A stretch of 64,000 bases of DNA from Vibrio bivalvicida. GTDB taxonomy: Bacteria > Pseudomonadota > Gammaproteobacteria > Enterobacterales > Vibrionaceae. The stretch covers positions 248,001 through 312,000 of the forward strand of contig NZ_LLEI02000032.1 of assembly GCF_001399455.2 (NCBI RefSeq), written 5' to 3'. This document shows, piece after piece, positions 42,118 to 53,205 of this stretch. The first letter of the stretch is position 1. The number at the start of each line of letters is the position of its first letter. A program made the translations under genes and the position numbers. The notes under the pieces were generated by a model. It did not search any database. It was given only the letters and a program-made list of their open reading frames with translations, and was not told the DNA's origin.

Positions 42118-43452
42118 TTATGCAGCCGAGCCTAGCGCTGACTGTAAATCAATACCTTGTTCGCGCATCGCTGCTAGCTTGTAGCGCAAAGCACGAGTGG
42201 TTACCCCAAGCGCATTTGCCGTCTTGGTACGGTTGCCGCCGAATTGGCGCAGTTTATCTAATATGTATTGGTACTCGGCTTGCTTCTTAGCCTCTACATG
42301 GCCCATTGTTTGAGTTGTTTTAGATTCTTCCTGTGGCGTTAGCAACTCTACAGGTAACATCAGATCATGAGCCGTAATGTAATCCCCATGTCTCATAACC
42401 AGCGCTCGTTGGATAACGTTTTCGAGCTCGCGGATGTTTCCCGGCCAATGATATTGACTAAGGGCAACCATGGCATCTTGAGAGAGGTGACATTGGCTAC
42501 CATCTTGATATTTACTAATGAAAAACTGACCAATGGGTAAAATGTCGTCCTTACGTTCTCTTAGAGGCGGCCAATGAAGAGGAAGCACATCAAGTCGGTA
42601 GTAAAGGTCCTCGCGGAAAGTACCATTTTTCACTTCATCTCTTAGATCTTTATTGGTTGCAGCGATCACGCGAATATCGAGCTTGACTGGCTTGTGGCTT
42701 CCCACTCGCTCAACTTCTCTCTCTTGCAACACGCGTAATAACTTTGCTTGTACCGCAGGTGACATTTCACCGATTTCGTCAAGCAAAATTGTGCCATTAT
42801 TCGCTTCTTCAAACTTACCGCTCTGTGAATTAGTCGCTCCGGTAAACGCCCCTTTAACATGGCCAAAAAGGACAGCTTCAAGCATTGATTCGGGTATTGC
42901 AGCGCAATTCACCGCAATAAAAGGGCCTTCAGAGCGCGAAGACTGTTCATGCACATAGCGAGCAAGTACTTCTTTACCCGTACCCGATTCTCCTGTGATT
43001 AATACACTCGCATTAGTACACGCCGCTCGATGGGCAAGTTGTAATACCTGCTTACTGCGCCATGACTCTGCGACAATGTTCGCCATTGGCTTGCCTACAG
43101 CCTCAACTCGGCTAAGTAAATTAACCAACTGGCTTTTTTCAAACGGTCTTAGCAAGTAATCCGTCGCGCCCGCTTTCATAGTTTCAGCCGCTAGAATACC
43201 TTGCTCCTGCTCTACGATGGCGATTGATACACCATCACCAGGCTTCTTTTGGTGACAATGTACAAACTCGCGCACACACATATCTGGAAGGTTTGAACTC
43301 ACTAACGTGATGCCCGCGGCTTGCTCTAGCAAAGCACTTCGCCCCGTTCTTGAATGGGTGATGGTGTAACCTGACTCTTCAAGTACTCTAATTACGGGTT
43401 GAGCAAGTTCGTCTTTCGGCTCAACCAACAAGATGTTTGCAGTATCTGCCAT
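42118..43452 (-). CDS. lafK: LafK, sigma-54-dependent activator of lateral flagellar genes
   Basis: A 444-residue activator: receiver-like domain (1-120), AAA+ domain with Walker A GESGTGKE at 154-161 and the sigma-54 contact loop GAFTGA at 201-206, and a Fis-type helix-turn-helix at the C-terminus (NRTKTANALGVTTRALRYKL). The receiver has Ser52 in place of the phospho-Asp and Arg in place of the switch Lys, so activity is probably not set by phosphorylation, as for FlrA/FleQ types. The ATG at 43452 follows the motY stop by two bases; a TTG two codons earlier was rejected. Confidence 0.94.
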   Translation of the reverse strand: MADTANILLVEPKDELAQPVIRVLEESGYTITHSRTGRSALLEQAAGITLVSSNLPDMCVREFVHCHQKKPGDGVSIAIVEQEQGILAAETMKAGATDYLLRPFEKSQLVNLLSRVEAVGKPMANIVAESWRSKQVLQLAHRAACTNASVLITGESGTGKEVLARYVHEQSSRSEGPFIAVNCAAIPESMLEAVLFGHVKGAFTGATNSQSGKFEEANNGTILLDEIGEMSPAVQAKLLRVLQEREVERVGSHKPVKLDIRVIAATNKDLRDEVKNGTFREDLYYRLDVLPLHWPPLRERKDDILPIGQFFISKYQDGSQCHLSQDAMVALSQYHWPGNIRELENVIQRALVMRHGDYITAHDLMLPVELLTPQEESKTTQTMGHVEAKKQAEYQYILDKLRQFGGNRTKTANALGVTTRALRYKLAAMREQGIDLQSALGSAA

Positions 43453-43454
43453 TT

Positions 43455-44360
43455 TCAAACCTTACCCTTATCGTTGTTGTCTGGTGTCATTGGAAGCACC
43501 GCTTCATCGCTGCGAACCAATCGCAAGGTGACTCGGCGATTCTTGGCCTGTCCTTGATGATTCGCATTGCTCGCAATGGGATATCGAGAGCCATGAGCAC
43601 GCACTTCGATCATGTTGCGGTCAACGCCAAGCTTTTCCATCTGGCTAGCCACCTGCTCCGCTCGTTGACGCGAAATTTTTAAATTGCCAATCTTCGAACC
43701 AACATTGTCGGCATAACCATCTATCAGCAGTTTGTCGACTCTAGAATCAACCATCAGATAACTATTCAATGCTGAAAGAGTTTTAAGCTGGTTTGCGTTA
43801 AGTGTTATCTGACCGAGCTCAAACAAAAGAGCAATATCCCTTGCTTGTGTATAAGACATTAATGGTAAAGACGACTGACAATCACGAAACCTTTTAAGTG
43901 CATTGTGAATGCGTATTGTCGGCACAAGATACGTGCTTTTGTCGGAAGGACTGTTTCCGCCGATAGTAAATTGAAGCCAATTGCCTGCTTCAATATCCAC
44001 CAACAAACCTTCGACATTTGTACTAAAAGACATGGTGCCTTTGTCTACAGAAGCAATATTGGTCACTATTCTAGGTGCGCGGCCGATATTCCACGGCGCA
44101 GGAGTACTTAAAAGCACCCCAGAATGCCCACGTTTATTTGCGCCATTCACGCTAGCTTTGAAATAAATCAACCCTTTTTCTTCCGAGCGGAAATAAAACT
44201 TCCCATAGGAAGGGTTATTATATTTCAAATCACATTTCAGATTGGTACCTTTATATTCCCAATTAACTTCATCCATTGGAATCTTAACCAAACTATTAGA
44301 CGAAGATTGAAAACTAAGAAAAAGTAAAGCCAACGAATATATTCTTGAATAAACTGCCAT
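43455..44360 (-). CDS. motY: lateral MotY-like OmpA-family T-ring protein
   Basis: A periplasmic protein with an N-terminal beta domain (EVNWEYKGTNLKCDLKYNNPSYG) typical of MotY and a C-terminal OmpA-like peptidoglycan-binding domain (LLIDGYADNVGSKIGNLKISRQRAEQV). MotY forms the T ring that holds the stator. The start at ATG 44360 gives a signal peptide (MAVYSRIYSLALLFLSF); an ATG 18 codons upstream lacks one. It is the first gene of the lafK-fli operon, as in V. parahaemolyticus. Confidence 0.85.
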   Translation of the reverse strand: MAVYSRIYSLALLFLSFQSSSNSLVKIPMDEVNWEYKGTNLKCDLKYNNPSYGKFYFRSEEKGLIYFKASVNGANKRGHSGVLLSTPAPWNIGRAPRIVTNIASVDKGTMSFSTNVEGLLVDIEAGNWLQFTIGGNSPSDKSTYLVPTIRIHNALKRFRDCQSSLPLMSYTQARDIALLFELGQITLNANQLKTLSALNSYLMVDSRVDKLLIDGYADNVGSKIGNLKISRQRAEQVASQMEKLGVDRNMIEVRAHGSRYPIASNANHQGQAKNRRVTLRLVRSDEAVLPMTPDNNDKGKV

Positions 44361-44788: not shown

Positions 44789-45604
44789 ATGGAACCCAGA
44801 ACCAAGATGTTTATTCCAGACTATCAAGCATTAAACATAGAATCGTTGGGCAAGCCAATTCATGTTATTCGTGAAAGGTTAGAAAGTTTAATGTCTAGTT
44901 CATGCAACAACCTAACTTGCGAGCTACAAAGCTGGCTTAAAAGCAGCCTAGTACATGCCTGCATCAAGCAGGTGTCACTGCATACGATGACAGCAAATGA
45001 AATGGACAAAGCAACCACCAGCACTTTTCAACACGATGGTGGAGGAAAGGTCTATATCAACGGAGATAAGGCAACTTTGATCAAGCTTGCCGATAGTTTC
45101 TATGACGCCAAGATGAAAAGAACCAGTGAGGTTCTGAGTAACAGTGATTTAAGGCTGCAAGAAAGACTGGGACGCCAAATGACGAGTTGGCTAGCACCTC
45201 AACAGATGTGGTCAAGTTGCGAATTCGAGCCAGCGCAAGGTAATGGATTATGGGCAAAAATAGAAATTTCTTTACCTGAACATCAAGGCATGGTGCACCT
45301 TAAACTAGATGAAAAGCTCGTTACCACCTTGACCGAACAGCTAAATCTTCAAGCCAACGACGCTATGAGTGAGCCATTTTGCCGATCACTCACATCAACG
45401 CCAGTAAAGCTTAATGTCTTATTGAGCAAGAAAGAGTTACCGCTCAGCGAAATAATCTCCTTGCAGCCCAATGATGTTTTACCCATTGAGCTGCTCTCTA
45501 CTGTTCCAGTCAGTATTGGCGACGAACACCTCTTTAACGGACGAGTTGCAGAGAAAGATGGGCAGCTTGTTTTGATCATCAACCATGATAAGGAGTCACT
45601 ATAA
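44789..45604 (+). CDS. fliM: lateral flagellar motor switch protein FliM
   Basis: A 271-residue C-ring protein, shorter than the usual 320-340. The middle domain and C-terminal SpoA domain (LPLSEIISLQPNDVLPIELL...VPVSIGDEHLFNGRVAEKDG) are present. The N-terminal CheY-P-binding segment (LSQxEIDxLL in polar FliM) is missing; the protein begins MEPRTKMFIPDYQALN. This fits the lateral motor, which does not reverse in the same way as polar ones. fliN starts on the last base of its stop. Confidence 0.88.
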   Translation: MEPRTKMFIPDYQALNIESLGKPIHVIRERLESLMSSSCNNLTCELQSWLKSSLVHACIKQVSLHTMTANEMDKATTSTFQHDGGGKVYINGDKATLIKLADSFYDAKMKRTSEVLSNSDLRLQERLGRQMTSWLAPQQMWSSCEFEPAQGNGLWAKIEISLPEHQGMVHLKLDEKLVTTLTEQLNLQANDAMSEPFCRSLTSTPVKLNVLLSKKELPLSEIISLQPNDVLPIELLSTVPVSIGDEHLFNGRVAEKDGQLVLIINHDKESL

Positions 45605-45972
45605 TGAGTGAGCCTACCGAAACAACGACCTTCAATGGTGAAGAACTGAACTTTGACGATTTTCAACTTGAGGGTTCTCAATCAGATCGTCTAGAAAGCT
45701 CTATCCCCACTCCAGAGCGAGATCTGAGTTTTTTTAGGAACATCCCCGTAACAGTAACGCTTGAAGTGGCTAGCAAAGACATCGCACTTGGTGACTTGAT
45801 GAAGGCGGGAGAAGGTAGCGTCATCGAATTAGACAAACTAAACGGCGAACCACTTGATGTTAAAGTCAATGGCTCTCTGATGGGCCATGCAGAAGTCGTA
45901 GTGGTTAACGAAAAGTATGGCTTGCGCTTAATTGATGTTGTGGATTCAGCATTAGCAACAGCCGTTCAGTAA
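45604..45972 (+). CDS. fliN: lateral flagellar motor switch protein FliN
   Basis: A 122-residue C-ring protein with the SpoA domain in the C-terminal 75 residues ([49 protein letters not shown]). The start overlaps the fliM stop by one base, so the two are coupled. Confidence 0.95.
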
Positions 45973-45985
45973 GGTTTACACAAGC

Positions 45986-46744
45986 ATGGCGAATGTACGT
46001 TCACTGCAAAGCTGGGTAACACTGATTGGCTTGACAAGCTTAATGCTCGCCTTCCCTTTATCTGCGAGCGAAACTGGCCTGACGATTCTGTCTGTCAGTG
46101 ATGGAGCTAGCCAACAAGAGTACAGTGTAAAGCTCCAAATTCTGCTGTTGATGACGGCTTTAAGCTTCCTACCCGCATTTATTTTAATGGCGACCAGTTT
46201 CACCCGTATTATTGTGGTGTTAACAATTTTAAGACAAGCACTTGGCTTACAACAAAGCCCACCTAATCGAGTGTTAGTCGGTATTGCCTTAGCGCTTTCC
46301 CTACTCATTATGCGCCCCGTTTGGACTGATATTTACCATAATGCTTTCCAACCATACGATAATGGCGAAATCACTTTGATGCAGGCTTTCTCAATCGCCG
46401 AAAAACCTGTTCGTAACTTCATGCTTGCCCAAACTCAACAAACCGCATTGGAACAGATGCTGCGTATTGCCAATGAACCTCTGGACACCCAAATTGAAGA
46501 TATTTCATTTGCTGTCGTTCTCCCTGCATTTGTAATCAGTGAGTTGAAAACCGCATTTCAAATTGGCTTTATGCTGTTCATCCCATTTCTGATTATTGAC
46601 CTTGTTGTCGCCAGTGTTTTGATGGCGATGGGTATGATGATGCTTTCTCCTCTCATCATCTCATTACCTTTTAAACTTGTCGTGTTTGTACTCGTCGACG
46701 GCTGGGCAATGACGGTCGGTACGCTCTCAGCAAGCTTCGGATAG
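45986..46744 (+). CDS. fliP: lateral flagellar export gate protein FliP
   Basis: A 252-residue export-gate subunit with a cleavable signal peptide (about 1-28), as in other FliP, and four membrane helices. Family motifs: [27 protein letters not shown] and [13 protein letters not shown]-like [24 protein letters not shown]. Confidence 0.96.
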
Positions 46745-46755
46745 TAGGAAACCTA

Positions 46756-47025
46756 ATGACTCCGGAAATGACCGTTACCCTATTCTCTAATGCTGTTTGG
46801 CTTATCATTTCCATGGTTGCCGTTCTCGTTGTTCCTGGCCTAATCGTTGGTCTTGGCATCGCAATTTTCCAAGCGGCGACTCAAATCAACGAACAAACCT
46901 TAAGTTTCTTACCGCGACTATTAGTCACGCTGTTGATGGTGATTTTTGCAGGGCACTGGATGCTGAGAAAAATTATGGATCTATTCGACTATCTGTTTCA
47001 CAGCATTCCGGGAATGATCGGCTAA
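46756..47025 (+). CDS. fliQ: lateral flagellar export gate protein FliQ
   Basis: An 89-residue protein with two membrane helices and the family pattern ALWLIIS-like AVWLIISMVAVLVVPGLIVG and QAATQINEQTLSFLPRLL. The stop shares a base with the fliR start. Confidence 0.95.
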   Translation: MTPEMTVTLFSNAVWLIISMVAVLVVPGLIVGLGIAIFQAATQINEQTLSFLPRLLVTLLMVIFAGHWMLRKIMDLFDYLFHSIPGMIG

Positions 47026-47801
47026 TGAGCATATCGTTTGCTGACATCTCGCAGTTACTGGGCCAACTCTGGTGGCCCTTTTTCCGTATCGGTGCAGTGT
47101 TTATCTCTATGCCGTTTTTTGGCGATGCCCTTATCCCAGTTTGGGTAAGAAGCCTACTCGCCCTATCTATTGTAGTAATTTCTGCCCCTTTGATGCCAAC
47201 CATGCCTACGGTTGATCTGTTTTCAATGAGTTCACTGTACCTTGCTTTCGAGCAAGCGATATGGGGGTTGTTTTTTGGCTTGATACTGCACATGTTGTTT
47301 ACCATTTTCACCACCCTTGGCCAGATTGTTTCGATGCAAATGGGTCTGGGTATGGCGATGATGAACGACCCCGTCAATGGGATGTCCGTCGCGATCCTTG
47401 GTCGAATCTTTCTGATCTTCAGTACGCTACTCTTTCTATCGCTAGAAGGTCATTTGGTGATCATTGATATTTTAATCCAAAGCTTTGTCGTGTGGCCGGT
47501 TGGATCTGGGCTTTCACTTGCTTCATTGCAAGGCATTGTCAATCTGTTCAGTTGGATGTTCGCTGCTTCTTTGGCTCTGGCTTTACCCGCTATCGTTTCC
47601 ATGCTACTTGCCAACATCAGCTTTGGTGTTATGAATAGAGCAGCCCCGTCACTCAACGTTTATGCTCTTGGTTTTCCTATGACGATGCTACTTGGTCTAT
47701 TCAGTGTATTAATTTCAGTCTCGGGCGTGCCAAGTCGGTATACCATTTTGGTCAACGATACTTTGCGTTTCCTTAACCAATATATGGCGGGGGGCGCATG
47801 A
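47025..47801 (+). CDS. fliR: lateral flagellar export gate protein FliR
   Basis: 258 residues, about six membrane helices (FFRIGAVFISMPFFGDALIP, FGLILHMLFTIFTTLGQIVSMQMGLGMAMM, RAAPSLNVYALGFPMTMLLGL). The ATG at 47025 overlaps the fliQ stop by one base; an open frame beginning 228 bases earlier is only a chance extension. FlhB starts within its last four bases. Confidence 0.95.
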   Translation: MSISFADISQLLGQLWWPFFRIGAVFISMPFFGDALIPVWVRSLLALSIVVISAPLMPTMPTVDLFSMSSLYLAFEQAIWGLFFGLILHMLFTIFTTLGQIVSMQMGLGMAMMNDPVNGMSVAILGRIFLIFSTLLFLSLEGHLVIIDILIQSFVVWPVGSGLSLASLQGIVNLFSWMFAASLALALPAIVSMLLANISFGVMNRAAPSLNVYALGFPMTMLLGLFSVLISVSGVPSRYTILVNDTLRFLNQYMAGGA

Positions 47802-48925
47802 GCGAACAATCTTCTCAAGATAAAACCGAAAAAGCCTCCCCCCAGAAAGTAAAGAAGGCACGTCAGGAAGGCCAAATTCCACGAGCCAAAGAGTTCACCA
47901 CAGCAGCCATATTTCTCGCAGTCGCGGTTTACTTCTACAGTCAAGTGACTGAAATTTGGGACAGTGTCGCCGGGGTTTTTCGCTACAACATGGCTCTGAC
48001 TAAAGAAGACCTCGAAAACCCAATACAGATGATCGAGCAACTTGGTCATAGCCTTGGTGTCCTCATTGCGCTTCTTGCACCTATGTTTGTTGTCATCATA
48101 GGCGTAACCGTTGCCAGTACACTCATTCTTGGCGGATGGATGTTCCGGCCTGCCAACGCCATGCCCAAAATGAGCAAGCTAAATCCGTTAAGTGGCATCA
48201 AAAGGATGTTCTCTACTCGCTCAGTGGTCGAACTTATTAAATCAACTTTGAAAGTGGCGGTAATATTTGGCTTTCTTTACAGCTATCTAGACAATCACCT
48301 CCAACCACTGCTTGGTATGCAGAGACTGTCTCTTGAGCAAGGTGTGGTTAAAGTTATGGCGATCCTGTTTGATGGATTGCTATTGATGGGGTTCGCGTTG
48401 CTGCTTTTTGGTGTGATTGATATTCCTTATCAACGTTGGGAACACTTAAAAGAACTCAAGATGACCAAACAAGAACTCAAAGAAGAGTACAAAAACAATG
48501 AAGGTCGACCAGAAGTTAAACAGCGCATAAGACAAATCCAACAACAGTTTGCTCGCCGTAAGATAGACAAAATGGTTCCGACTGCAGACGTCATCATTAC
48601 TAACCCAACCCACTATGCCGTTGCGGTTAAATATGACCCTAGCTTATCTGATGCGCCATTTGTGGTCGCGAAAGGTGTCGATGAAACAGCAATGCATATT
48701 CAGCGTATTGGCCGTGAAAACCAAATCGAGATCATTAACTCGCCACCACTAACGCGTTCTATTTACTACACCACCGCCATTGAACAAGCAGTTCCTAGTC
48801 AGCTCTACATCGCTGTGGCGCACATTCTTACTTATGTTATGCAATTGAAATCGTTTCGAACTGGGGGAGGCGAAAAGCCGATGCCACTTCCTCACTTTGT
48901 GATTCCAAAACACCTGCAACACTAA
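47798..48925 (+). CDS. flhB: lateral flagellar export switch protein FlhB
   Basis: 375 residues: N-terminal basic SSQDKTEKASPQKVKKARQEG, four membrane helices, and a cytoplasmic domain with the self-cleavage site NPTH at 269-272. FlhB switches export from rod/hook to filament substrates. ATG overlaps the fliR stop by four bases. Confidence 0.96.
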   Translation: MSEQSSQDKTEKASPQKVKKARQEGQIPRAKEFTTAAIFLAVAVYFYSQVTEIWDSVAGVFRYNMALTKEDLENPIQMIEQLGHSLGVLIALLAPMFVVIIGVTVASTLILGGWMFRPANAMPKMSKLNPLSGIKRMFSTRSVVELIKSTLKVAVIFGFLYSYLDNHLQPLLGMQRLSLEQGVVKVMAILFDGLLLMGFALLLFGVIDIPYQRWEHLKELKMTKQELKEEYKNNEGRPEVKQRIRQIQQQFARRKIDKMVPTADVIITNPTHYAVAVKYDPSLSDAPFVVAKGVDETAMHIQRIGRENQIEIINSPPLTRSIYYTTAIEQAVPSQLYIAVAHILTYVMQLKSFRTGGGEKPMPLPHFVIPKHLQH

Positions 48926-48956: not shown

Positions 48957-51047
48957 ATGCTCAATCGGTTAAAACAATTACAGACTTCTGCCAAAGGCTT
49001 TGTCGGGATTCCGCTGGTCTTATTGATGGTACTCGCAATGGTTATTCTACCTTTGCCACCATTACTGCTCGATGCGCTGTTCACCTTTAACATTGTGCTC
49101 GCGATTCTTGTTCTTCTGGTCAGTACAACGGCAAAACGTCCGCTCGATTTTTCGATTTTTCCGACCATATTGCTGATCGCAACCTTACTACGTCTCACTC
49201 TAAACGTTGCCTCAACGCGGGTGGTGCTGCTTGAAGGTCATAATGGTGGTGACGCAGCGGGTAAGGTTATCCAAGCATTTGGTGAGGTTGTCATCGGCGG
49301 TAACTACGTAGTTGGTATGGTGATATTCGTTATCTTAATGATCATCAACTTTGTGGTTATTACCAAGGGTGGTGAGCGCATTTCAGAAGTATCGGCTCGC
49401 TTTACCCTTGATGCCTTACCCGGTAAACAGATGGCGATTGACGCTGACCTTAACGCCGGTCTGATAGATCAAGAAGCAGCTCGCCAACGTCGCCGTGAAG
49501 TGGCAAACGAAGCGGATTTTCATGGTTCGATGGACGGTGCCTCTAAGTTTGTTCGCGGGGATGCCGTTGCTGGCTTGTTGATCCTGTTTATTAACATCAC
49601 TGGCGGTATTAGCATCGGTGTGTTCGAGCACGGTTTATCCGCCACTGAAGCATTTAAAACCTACGCACTTCTCACCATTGGTGATGGCCTTGTCGCACAA
49701 ATCCCATCGTTACTATTAGCCACAGCCGCCGCCATTATCGTTACTCGCATCAATGATAGCGACAACGGTATGTCTGAGACGATGCACAAACAGTTGCTCG
49801 CCTCGCCTACAACCTTGTTCACCGTCGCTACAGTGATGTTGGTCATCGGTCTTGTCCCTGGCATGCCGCACCTTGCGTTTTTCACTTTCGCTGCCGTGGT
49901 TGCTTTTGCTGGCTGGCGACAGGCTAAAAATCCCGCCCATGAGGCGCAACTTGACGATGTAGAAGTGATCAGTCAGGCGATGCAGCATGAAGAGGCACCA
50001 CTTAGTTGGCAAGACATTCCCCATGTCCATACACTGTCACTGGCTTTAGGGTATCGGCTTGTCCACTTAGTGAACAAGGAGCAAGGTGCGCCGCTGACGC
50101 AACGAATTCGCGGTTTACGTCGCAACCTGTCAGAGCAAGTGGGTTTTCTGTTACCCGAAGTTCGTATCCGCGACAACCTTAGCCTTAAACCCAACCAGTA
50201 CACGATTTCACTCAACGGGGAATTGATAGACCAAGGGTTTATCGAGCCAGATCGCCTCATGGCGATTGCTGTGGGAGAAACCTATGGCGAAATCGATGGT
50301 ATTTTGGGCAGCGATCCCGCTTATCAACTTCCAGCAGTTTGGATTGAACATCCAGATAAAGCGAAAGCACTCAATATGGGCTATCAGGTCGTTGATGATG
50401 CCACAGTAATCGCAACTCACATCAGCAAAGTAATAAAGACTCACCTAGCAGAGCTGTTCAACCATGATGACGTAGAGGCAATGACACAAAGGCTGACTCA
50501 GCAAGCGCCAAAACTTGCCGAGGCACTGACAGCAGCACTTAACCCAGCGCAGCAATTAAAAGTGTTTCGGCAACTGCTATTGGATCAAGTCCCACTTCAA
50601 GACATTCGCACTATTGCCAATACCATGTTGGAGTCTTCAGAGAACACTAAAGATCCGATCTTACTGGCAGCAGATGTACGCTGCGCCCTACGCCGGACTT
50701 TGGTCAATTTAGTCGCAGGACCAAAGACCGAACTTAAAGTATATGCACTGTCTGACGAGTTAGAGCAGATGTTGTTGACTTCGATGCAGCAAGCGCAATC
50801 AAGTGGCACCATTATGCTAGACAGCTTTCCGATCGAGCCAAACATCCTCGCTCAATTCCAACAAAACCTGCCATTAATTAAGCAGCAGCTTAAGCAACAA
50901 GGGCTGGCACCCATTCTGTTGGTAATGCCTCAGCTTAGGCCATTAATTGCCCGTTATGCGCGAACATTCTCGCAAGGTCTAGCGGTGCTTTCTTATAACG
51001 AAATTCCTGAAACAAAACAGATCAACGTGGTAGGTAACCTTGGGTAA
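48957..51047 (+). CDS. flhA: lateral flagellar export gate protein FlhA
   Basis: 696 residues: eight membrane helices (about 15-310), the conserved FHIPEP-like loop region (DFSIFPTILLIATLLRLTLNVASTR; VVITKGGERISEVSARFTLDALPGKQMAIDADL), and the large cytoplasmic domain that binds chaperone-substrate complexes. The 3' end overlaps the next gene by eight bases. Confidence 0.97.
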   Translation: MLNRLKQLQTSAKGFVGIPLVLLMVLAMVILPLPPLLLDALFTFNIVLAILVLLVSTTAKRPLDFSIFPTILLIATLLRLTLNVASTRVVLLEGHNGGDAAGKVIQAFGEVVIGGNYVVGMVIFVILMIINFVVITKGGERISEVSARFTLDALPGKQMAIDADLNAGLIDQEAARQRRREVANEADFHGSMDGASKFVRGDAVAGLLILFINITGGISIGVFEHGLSATEAFKTYALLTIGDGLVAQIPSLLLATAAAIIVTRINDSDNGMSETMHKQLLASPTTLFTVATVMLVIGLVPGMPHLAFFTFAAVVAFAGWRQAKNPAHEAQLDDVEVISQAMQHEEAPLSWQDIPHVHTLSLALGYRLVHLVNKEQGAPLTQRIRGLRRNLSEQVGFLLPEVRIRDNLSLKPNQYTISLNGELIDQGFIEPDRLMAIAVGETYGEIDGILGSDPAYQLPAVWIEHPDKAKALNMGYQVVDDATVIATHISKVIKTHLAELFNHDDVEAMTQRLTQQAPKLAEALTAALNPAQQLKVFRQLLLDQVPLQDIRTIANTMLESSENTKDPILLAADVRCALRRTLVNLVAGPKTELKVYALSDELEQMLLTSMQQAQSSGTIMLDSFPIEPNILAQFQQNLPLIKQQLKQQGLAPILLVMPQLRPLIARYARTFSQGLAVLSYNEIPETKQINVVGNLG

Positions 51048-51849
51048 TCTAAATTCACATCAAGCCATGTACGGCTACATCATTAAACTCATGGAAGAGT
51101 ATGTTGAGACTGAGGACGATATGCTCCTTTTTGAGGCACTCAAACACAATGACATCAAACATGCATGTCAGGCGATACGCGAAACGCGATCGGGAGAGGT
51201 CGAATTCCAGCATCTGACACTTCGCTTTGGCGGAGATGGGGAGCAAAGCGTGTATCAGTTTGATCTGTCGCAAAACATCAAATATTGCCTCGATCTGTTT
51301 AGTCTGTATTTGGCTCTACGCCAGACCCGCTTTCAACTCGAAACTTTCCACCCAGATTTGATCAGCAATGTGGTGGTACCACTGCAAGTTGAAGCCCTGA
51401 CATGGCAACCTGGAAACGAATTTTTTGAACAAGTGATTCAATGCCACAAACAAGCGTTTGCCCATGTCATCCCTTCATTGCAGTTGGGCAATAAATCCAG
51501 TTCATCCTCCGTAATGGCCCATCTAGTCGAAAAAATTGAAGAATTTGCCTATGCTTTGTGGTTTGAAGTGACACCACCCTGTCCGCTGTTTGAGCGAATT
51601 GCTCAATTTAAACCGTCAATGCTCAAGATCTCGATATCGCTAGAAGACAAAGAAAATCGCCAAGCCTTTTTGCCGATTGTGCGATTGCTCAAGAAGCATA
51701 AGCTGAAATGGGTAGCAAGCCGTGTCGCGAGCCAAAAAGAACTCAATCAATACAAGTTGCTGGGTGCCAGTTACTATTTTGGCTACTTTAGCGACATTCC
51801 AACATCACTTTCCTTTAAAACATTTGAAAACGAAAATGAGGTTTGGTGA
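51040..51849 (+). CDS. degenerate EAL-domain protein coupled to lateral flhA
   Basis: A 269-residue protein. From about residue 50 it follows the c-di-GMP phosphodiesterase (EAL) fold: the EALLRW strand appears as FQHLTLRF; the VNLS segment as NVVVPLQVEAL with GNEFFEQVI; LKIDRSF as MLKISISL (195-202); and GLKVVAEGVE...LGCDYVQGY as KLKWVASRVASQKELNQYKL and LGASYYFGYF. The catalytic E of EAL, the DDFG loop, the LKID aspartate and the VAEGVE glutamates are all lost, so it cannot be an active enzyme. It resembles YdiV-type EAL proteins that regulate flagella by protein contact. The start is TTG 51040 (AGGT 5 bases upstream) or ATG 51067. Confidence 0.72.
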   Translation: MGNLNSHQAMYGYIIKLMEEYVETEDDMLLFEALKHNDIKHACQAIRETRSGEVEFQHLTLRFGGDGEQSVYQFDLSQNIKYCLDLFSLYLALRQTRFQLETFHPDLISNVVVPLQVEALTWQPGNEFFEQVIQCHKQAFAHVIPSLQLGNKSSSSSVMAHLVEKIEEFAYALWFEVTPPCPLFERIAQFKPSMLKISISLEDKENRQAFLPIVRLLKKHKLKWVASRVASQKELNQYKLLGASYYFGYFSDIPTSLSFKTFENENEVW

Positions 51850-52026: not shown

Positions 52027-52866
52027 ATGGCTTTATCAATGCACACTAACTACGCATCACTAGTAACGCAAAATACACTAAGCAGCACTAATGACCTACT
52101 CACCACAGCGATGGAACGCCTAAGTACTGGTATGCGTATCAATTCTGCAGCTGACGACGCAGCAGGTCTTACTATCGCCAACAAACTTGAAGCACAAACT
52201 CGCGGCATGTCTGTTGCGATGCGTAACTCTCAAGATGCTATCTCGATGCTGCAAACAGCAGACGGCGCACTTGAAGAGCTAACCAACATTGCTTACCGCA
52301 TGAAAGACCTTGCAACTCAAGGCGCGAACGGCACTAACGGTGCGACTGAACTTGCTGCGCTAGATGCAGAATATCAAGAGCTTGAGAAAGAAGCTGGACG
52401 CATTATCAACGAAACGACCTACGGTGCAGGACAGAAACTGCTTGAGACTACAAATGGTAAATTAGCAGCAGCAGTTACTTTCCAAATTGGGGCATCAACA
52501 GGTGAAAAACTTGACGTGGATGTTTCTACTTTGGTTAAAGCCATCGAAACAGACCTAGCCGCAACAGGACCTCTTGATAACAACGCTAACTCTAACGGCG
52601 AAATTGCTAAAGTTGATGCGTTATTCGACAAAATCAACACCGTGCGTTCTTCTTTAGGTGCAAACATCAACCGTCTAGACCACACGATCAACAACCTAGC
52701 GAACATCTCTGAAAACACAGCCGCAGCAAAAGGCCGTATCACAGACGCAGACTTCGCGATTGAATCTTCAAACATGACGAAGAACCAAATGCTGATGCAA
52801 GCAGGTACAACGGTTCTTTCTCAGACTAACCAGCTACCTGGCATGGCAATGTCTCTGCTTCGCTAA
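52027..52866 (+). CDS. lafA: lateral flagellin LafA
   Basis: 279-residue flagellin: conserved D0/D1 helices at both ends ([45 protein letters not shown] at the N-terminus; [22 protein letters not shown] and [18 protein letters not shown] at the C-terminus) and a short central part, as for lateral flagellins. The ATG at 52027 follows AAGGAGA; an in-frame start 8 codons upstream was rejected. It stands alone between its own promoter region and a strong terminator, the usual arrangement for a highly expressed filament gene. Confidence 0.96.
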
Positions 52867-52937: not shown

Positions 52938-53205
52938 ATCCGATTCAGTTCGCGTGAATTTTAAACTTAATCTTTGCTCCTTTTTGGTCGCCTCTATTTT
53001 ATAAGGAACAATCCGCTTCACGCAGGAAATGGCGGAATTCCTATCATGGAAGGCTCTCTTCCGTTTTTTAGAAAAAACAAGAACAAGCCATTGATAAATA
53101 AAAATATTTACATTGGCACTCATATTGCAATTTACTCAAACCGAATAGATTGGTGATGTGTGACTTCTGCCACTTGGCGAGACACTTAGTAAAGGGAGTA
53201 CTCTG
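52938..53205. other. non-coding region upstream of lateral fliD
   Basis: No gene seen; short frames in this stretch have no recognisable features. It carries the sigma-54-type element described separately. Confidence 0.5.
53113..53130 (+). promoter_or_regulatory. sigma-54 promoter of the fliD-motB operon
   Basis: TTGGCAC-N5-TTGCAA with the GG and GC pairs separated by exactly 10 bases, matching the -24/-12 consensus TGGCAC-N5-TTGCW. It lies 76 bases upstream of the fliD start. The LafK activator encoded in the same cluster is the obvious partner. Confidence 0.75.

Follow-up and report, generated by a model that had tools for sequence, protein, structure and literature searches.

What is the role of a gene that encodes a degenerate EAL domain, closes an operon for the lateral flagellar export apparatus, and begins inside the coding sequence of the export gate that precedes it? 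Such a gene occurs in a 64,000-nucleotide stretch of Vibrio bivalvicida DNA (contig NZ_LLEI02000032.1, positions 248,001 to 312,000), referred to here as the window. The gene and its neighbours are as follows.

44789..48925, plus strand: fliM, fliN, fliP, fliQ, fliR, and flhB, named from NCBIfam and Pfam models, nearly touching and all on one strand
48957..51047, plus strand: lateral flhA, the export gate, which precedes lafV (NCBIfam FlhA 776.5 bits, cut-off 772.1)
51040..51849, plus strand: lafV, a degenerate EAL-domain protein of 269 aa with a TTG start (Pfam EAL E 1.1e-6, EAL fold, 62 orthologues)
52027..52866, plus strand: lafA, the lateral flagellin, which follows lafV (NCBIfam NF038071 410.4 bits, cut-off 365)
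42118..43458, minus strand: lafK, a sigma-54-dependent activator and the proposed target of LafV (Pfam Sigma54_activat 242 bits, plus HTH_8)

The flagellar system is identified as lateral because lafA passes the NCBIfam model for lateral LafA and FlhA passes its own. FliM scores below its own NCBIfam cut-off and passes the Pfam FliMN_C model. The name LafK for the product of 42118..43458 is taken from its position in the laf cluster, and an NCBIfam search matched it to no LafK-specific model. The gene lafV is the closing gene of the operon fliM-fliN-fliP-fliQ-fliR-flhB-flhA. A chance open reading frame can be rejected, since the gene has 62 orthologues and pairwise dN/dS is low (0.02–0.09 in nine of the 11 orthologue pairs tried, dS being saturated in the other two).

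The product has its orthologue in LafV (VPA1547) of V. parahaemolyticus. The two come from different species and were matched by fold, degenerate motif, and position in the order flhA-lafV-lafA rather than by sequence identity. In a passage of PMC9303241, LafV is described as a degenerate EAL protein which, together with LafK, exerts repression on the surface-sensing regulon, and its gene is placed last in a lateral flagellar operon. In the numbering found in part of PMC4481668, FlhA is VPA1546 and LafA is VPA1548, so that VPA1547 occupies the same slot as the window gene. Similarly, an excerpt of PMC8215210 states that swarming is negatively influenced by lafV. A further example is VA3641 of V. 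alginolyticus HN08155, an EAL-only protein known from a table entry in PMC10552763. Its HLT motif and 265 aa correspond to those of orthologues such as L014, and it is very likely the same protein. The suggestion in the original prediction that the gene is missing from the described laf gene sets is therefore not borne out; the kind of gene and its role are already known from a related Vibrio. Its suggestion of a flagellar regulator resembling YdiV fared better, as the published repression needs LafK and extends to swarming. That the gene belongs to the swarming control circuit as a conserved component can be regarded as settled. What is new here is the residue map across 62 orthologues, the conserved start inside flhA with its natural control, and the repeated losses.

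The relationship of LafV to EAL domains is faint in single-sequence searches. The Pfam EAL match is confined to residues 184–250 (E 1.1e-6, 28.6 bits, below the curated cut-off of 31.3) and scores lowest among the 24 EAL matches of its own genome; the same model is matched at E ≤ 0.01 by 60 of the 62 orthologues. LafV matched no NCBIfam model and, using phmmer up to E 10, no PDB sequence. A PDB search with the LafV profile returned three weak matches, including the EAL domain of LapD at E 0.012. Alignment of the 62-orthologue profile with a profile of EAL domains from the same genome covered residues 27–258 at E 1.2e-8, and a control with the EAL profile reversed gave E 0.039 over 17 columns. 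The EAL profile was built from 15 of the genome's 23 other EAL matches, leaving out two partial matches and six missed by the motif filter. An AlphaFold2 model built from the 62-orthologue alignment (mean pLDDT 88.4, pTM 0.88) yielded 101 Foldseek matches in the PDB at E ≤ 0.001, and the 50 listed are all EAL-domain proteins. The best structural match among those listed, by VIA-align, is the LapD EAL domain (3pjt_A), with Z 21.1 and 3.0 Å over 225 residues, spanning model residues 23–257. Although its Pfam score is under the cut-off, LafV belongs to the TIM-barrel EAL fold, and the expectation of such a fold over about 200 residues is borne out by both the predicted structure and the profile alignment.

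The active-site motifs of this fold are extensively altered: EAL has become HLT, LKID has become LKIS, VAEGVE has become VASRVA, and DDFG is absent. Across the 62 orthologues, the EAL glutamate (position 58) is replaced by H in 58 and Y in four; the ELTE glutamate (position 148) by Q in 55, I in three, Y in three, and H in one; and the VAEG glutamate (position 227) by G in 53 and S in nine. At position 230, the GVE glutamate is likewise found in none, and the QGY glutamine is F in all 62. Three residues are retained in every orthologue, namely Q44 (the QP glutamine), R62 (the ExLxR arginine), and K196 (the LKID lysine). Position 176, aligned with the first D of DDFG, is divided evenly between E and D, with 31 orthologues each. 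The position of the metal-binding Asn is ambiguous by two residues, with N at 114–117 in ten of the 62. The claim that all catalytic and metal-binding motifs had been lost thus described the changes correctly, but went slightly too far in respect of Q44, R62, K196, and the acidic position 176.

These replacements bear on whether LafV might be an active or weakly active phosphodiesterase. PMC12405303 says that a phosphodiesterase function has been demonstrated for LafV, and PMC10562556 counts it among the proteins that c-di-GMP metabolism requires. However, not one of the 62 orthologues has a glutamate at position 58, 148, 227, or 230, and the V. alginolyticus inventory in PMC10552763 predicts phosphodiesterase activity for ten of its 11 EAL-only proteins. 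The eleventh is unnamed in the accessible text of that source, where the HLT protein is the sole entry of the 11 without the motif glutamate. Catalysis by LafV is consequently judged very unlikely, and an active phosphodiesterase is rejected because the glutamates are missing throughout the orthologues. The residue map therefore argues against the activity assumed in some papers.

A related proposal is that LafV binds c-di-GMP or another nucleotide without degrading it, and signals to LafK or the motor in the manner of LapD or FimX. The best structural matches, among those listed, include the LapD EAL domain bound to c-di-GMP (Z 21.1), and Q44, R62, and K196 are invariant in the 62 orthologues. 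In addition, the seven catalytic-site equivalents have a mean conservation of 0.83, compared with 0.62 for all positions; 1.7% of random sets of equal size score as high as these sites, which were chosen post hoc. The remaining ligand and metal positions, including those of the EAL, ELTE, and VAEG glutamates and the QGY glutamine, are nevertheless occupied by other residues. The EAL domain of LapD, which is degenerate like LafV, is part of a larger GGDEF-EAL c-di-GMP receptor, whereas LafV is a lone EAL domain whose binding residues are largely replaced. In their abstract, Kimbrough and McCarter are reported to state that mutating the EAL motif made little difference and that the c-di-GMP reporter cps was unaffected by lafV, the latter also speaking against a receptor. 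According to part of PMC3510510, YdiV has lost eight of ten catalytic residues, does not bind c-di-GMP, and binds the master activator directly. A c-di-GMP receptor, as first suggested, is weakened by the replaced positions, despite the persistence of Q44, R62, and K196, and is considered unlikely.

To judge from the residues themselves, the former active site is not simply decayed, as the replacements are unusually conserved. It is conceivable, albeit speculative, that Q44, H58, T60, R62, Q148, K196, and F247 form a rebuilt pocket for a small molecule other than c-di-GMP, whose binding would switch the grip of LafV on LafK. If this were true, a metabolite sensed by a dead enzyme would give the licence to swarm. 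In YdiV, phosphate and glycerol have been observed in the old active site.

YdiV (RflP) of E. coli resembles LafV in being a dead EAL fold and a repressor of flagellar genes. The target of YdiV is FlhDC, while the proposed target of LafV is a sigma-54 activator, and ydiV lies outside any flagellar operon in K-12, unlike lafV. Against the LafV profile, YdiV scored −1.2 bits with hmmsearch, the lowest of 16 sequences, and E 0.24 with hhalign; the general EAL profile aligned with YdiV at E 3.7e-7. No YdiV chain appears among the 50 VIA-align matches listed, which proves nothing either way. Membership of LafV in the YdiV family is rejected on the lack of specific sequence kinship, and similar roles therefore seem to have arisen twice. 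The likeness looks convergent, and the parallel drawn originally stands for function and falls for sequence family. A second pseudo-EAL route to flagellar braking, independent of YdiV, offers a useful comparison. The ‘LafV’ of Enterobacterales flag-2 systems has only its name in common with the present protein, being an N-lysine methylase related to FliB according to a section of PMC6993521; homology to it is rejected as a name clash.

The start of lafV lies within the end of flhA, in the following element.

51030..51047, plus strand: the junction GTAGGTAACCTTGGGTAA, in which a ribosome-site-like GTAGG, the TTG start of lafV, and the flhA stop form one motif

The open reading frame coordinates confirm an overlap of 8 nt at the flhA stop. 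The motif GTAGGnAAYCTTGGnTAR is present in 56 of the 62 loci with lafV and in none of 14 lateral flhA loci without it; among the 48 named loci, 43 have it exactly. In the six exceptions with lafV, the gene starts at an ATG 31–32 nt past the flhA stop, and the end of flhA resembles that of genomes lacking lafV. Seven genomes with a closely related lateral system and no lafV still encode NLG at the end of flhA using other codons, which indicates that the junction motif is kept for lafV and not for FlhA. The predicted translational coupling of flhA and lafV is accordingly conserved, and the overlap and junction motif together support the earlier claim that the laf operon contains a pseudo-EAL gene coupled to lateral flhA. 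The conserved motif inside flhA also provides a further handle for bench work.

Among 296 Vibrionaceae genomes, 73 match LafV at E ≤ 1e-3, and 64 were retained after nine weak matches, with E between 6e-5 and 1e-3, were left out as different EAL genes or partial ones. The alignment of 62 omits from these a fragment in G046 (L063) and a solitary gene in G084 (L061). An order-wide sample of 394 genomes contains six with a match at E ≤ 1e-8, and all are Vibrio, one of 114 genera. A scan of named genomes found at least 48 loci in Vibrio, Photobacterium, Enterovibrio, Grimontia, and one bin named only Vibrionaceae; the gene-family searches included a pattern step and are non-exhaustive. In all 48 named Vibrionaceae loci, flhA lies upstream and lafA downstream.

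The distribution of LafV follows that of LafK. A close lateral LafK (71% identity or more) occurs in 67 of the 296 genomes; 60 have both proteins, seven have LafK only, and four have LafV only. The co-occurrence has a p value of 1e-49, from a test that ignores the relatedness of genomes. The LafK threshold, about 660 bits, was chosen once the scores had been seen to drop from 667.5 to 519.6 bits with none in between, and the search scored five candidates per genome, so that a LafK may be missed. The four genomes with LafV and without a close LafK speak against action through LafK. G001 has a LafK at 57%, G284 has an interrupted lateral cluster, G046 has a LafV fragment in a decayed lateral cluster, and G084, a genome 87% complete, has a solitary, altered lafV with no lateral genes in 19.9 kb.

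Several details of these loci can be recorded. The lateral flhA of G001, a 2.6 Mb genome (L139 and L064), seems to carry a frameshift around residue 590; the lafV gene after it is open, with its start motif intact. In G284 (L179), flhB matches from residue 137 only and flhA and lafV are intact; fliM to fliQ and lafK were not found in the 15 kb stretch. The G046 locus (L181) holds the ruins of a lateral cluster, with fragments of lafV, lafA, fliG, and fliH, and a 32% LafK-like gene between them. The relative in G084 (L180:9840-10598, minus strand) has alterations at positions that are otherwise nearly invariant, such as HLTLRFG to HAALRFG and YFGY to YFEY. Loss of the lateral cluster has probably left this gene to decay, and such altered residues are as expected if LafV works only with a lateral system. 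Lastly, seven genomes of Vibrio and another genus (G118, G269, G121, G133, G135, G139, G148) carry a divergent second lateral-type system, with FlhA at 66–69% and LafK at 59–61%. None of the seven has lafV, and they were counted as lacking a close LafK.

Seven other genomes have a close lateral lafK and flhA and no lafV. In six of these, flhA is followed by lafA after 199–496 nt with no lafV in between; in the seventh (G027), lafA was not found adjoining flhA. The genes lafB and lafT are retained in all seven, some at a distance. In one genome without lafV (G189, L131), the lateral flhA match loses frame near residues 650–670. A tree of FlhA with 77 rows (63 with LafV, G001 appearing twice as L064 and L139, and 14 without) requires five changes of the LafV label, at least four of which are forced by well-supported branches. 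One loss clade, of four genomes, is nested within the clade of the window itself. With the distant flhA type as outgroup (seven rows), from which the direction is inferred, the tree would be explained by one gain of lafV and about four losses. These separate loss events in lateral-flagellated Vibrionaceae represent natural lafV knock-outs.

The losses are also relevant to the suggestion that LafV serves the export gate by partnering or stabilising FlhA, and affects transcription indirectly through FlgM export. Such a role would accord with the coupling to flhA in 56 of 62 loci. Yet the seven genomes retain lateral flhA, lafB, and lafT without lafV, and the published repression needs LafK (as excerpted from PMC9303241), which is not required by the FlgM route. 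A partnership with FlhA, as envisaged in the original prediction, is left with gene order in its favour, and action at the export gate appears distinctly improbable. The gene lafV is dispensable; in six genomes it is cleanly missing from the interval between flhA and lafA, which suits an accessory regulator better than a structural component.

Taken with the published repression, these observations suggest that LafV is probably a dead EAL brake on lateral flagellar gene expression, acting through LafK, most likely by protein contact and without degradation of c-di-GMP, and providing feedback through its coupling to flhA. The TTG start inside the end of flhA would couple LafV synthesis to flhA translation, and LafV would then accumulate while the lateral export gate is made. 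By damping LafK-dependent transcription, it would exert negative feedback. We infer this feedback role, and likewise take direct contact between LafV and LafK as the likeliest mechanism. Feedback would require LafK control of the fliM operon, which is presumed here; a scan allowing up to three mismatches found no sigma-54 site upstream of fliM. An exact sigma-54 consensus, TGGCAC-N5-TTGCA, occurs at 53114–53129, just before the fliD-like lafB (53206), and the best sigma-28 matches before lafA all have four mismatches. In four of the loci (L043, L057, L058, and L060), LafV is extended at its C-terminus by about 70 residues, which are charged and helix-like.
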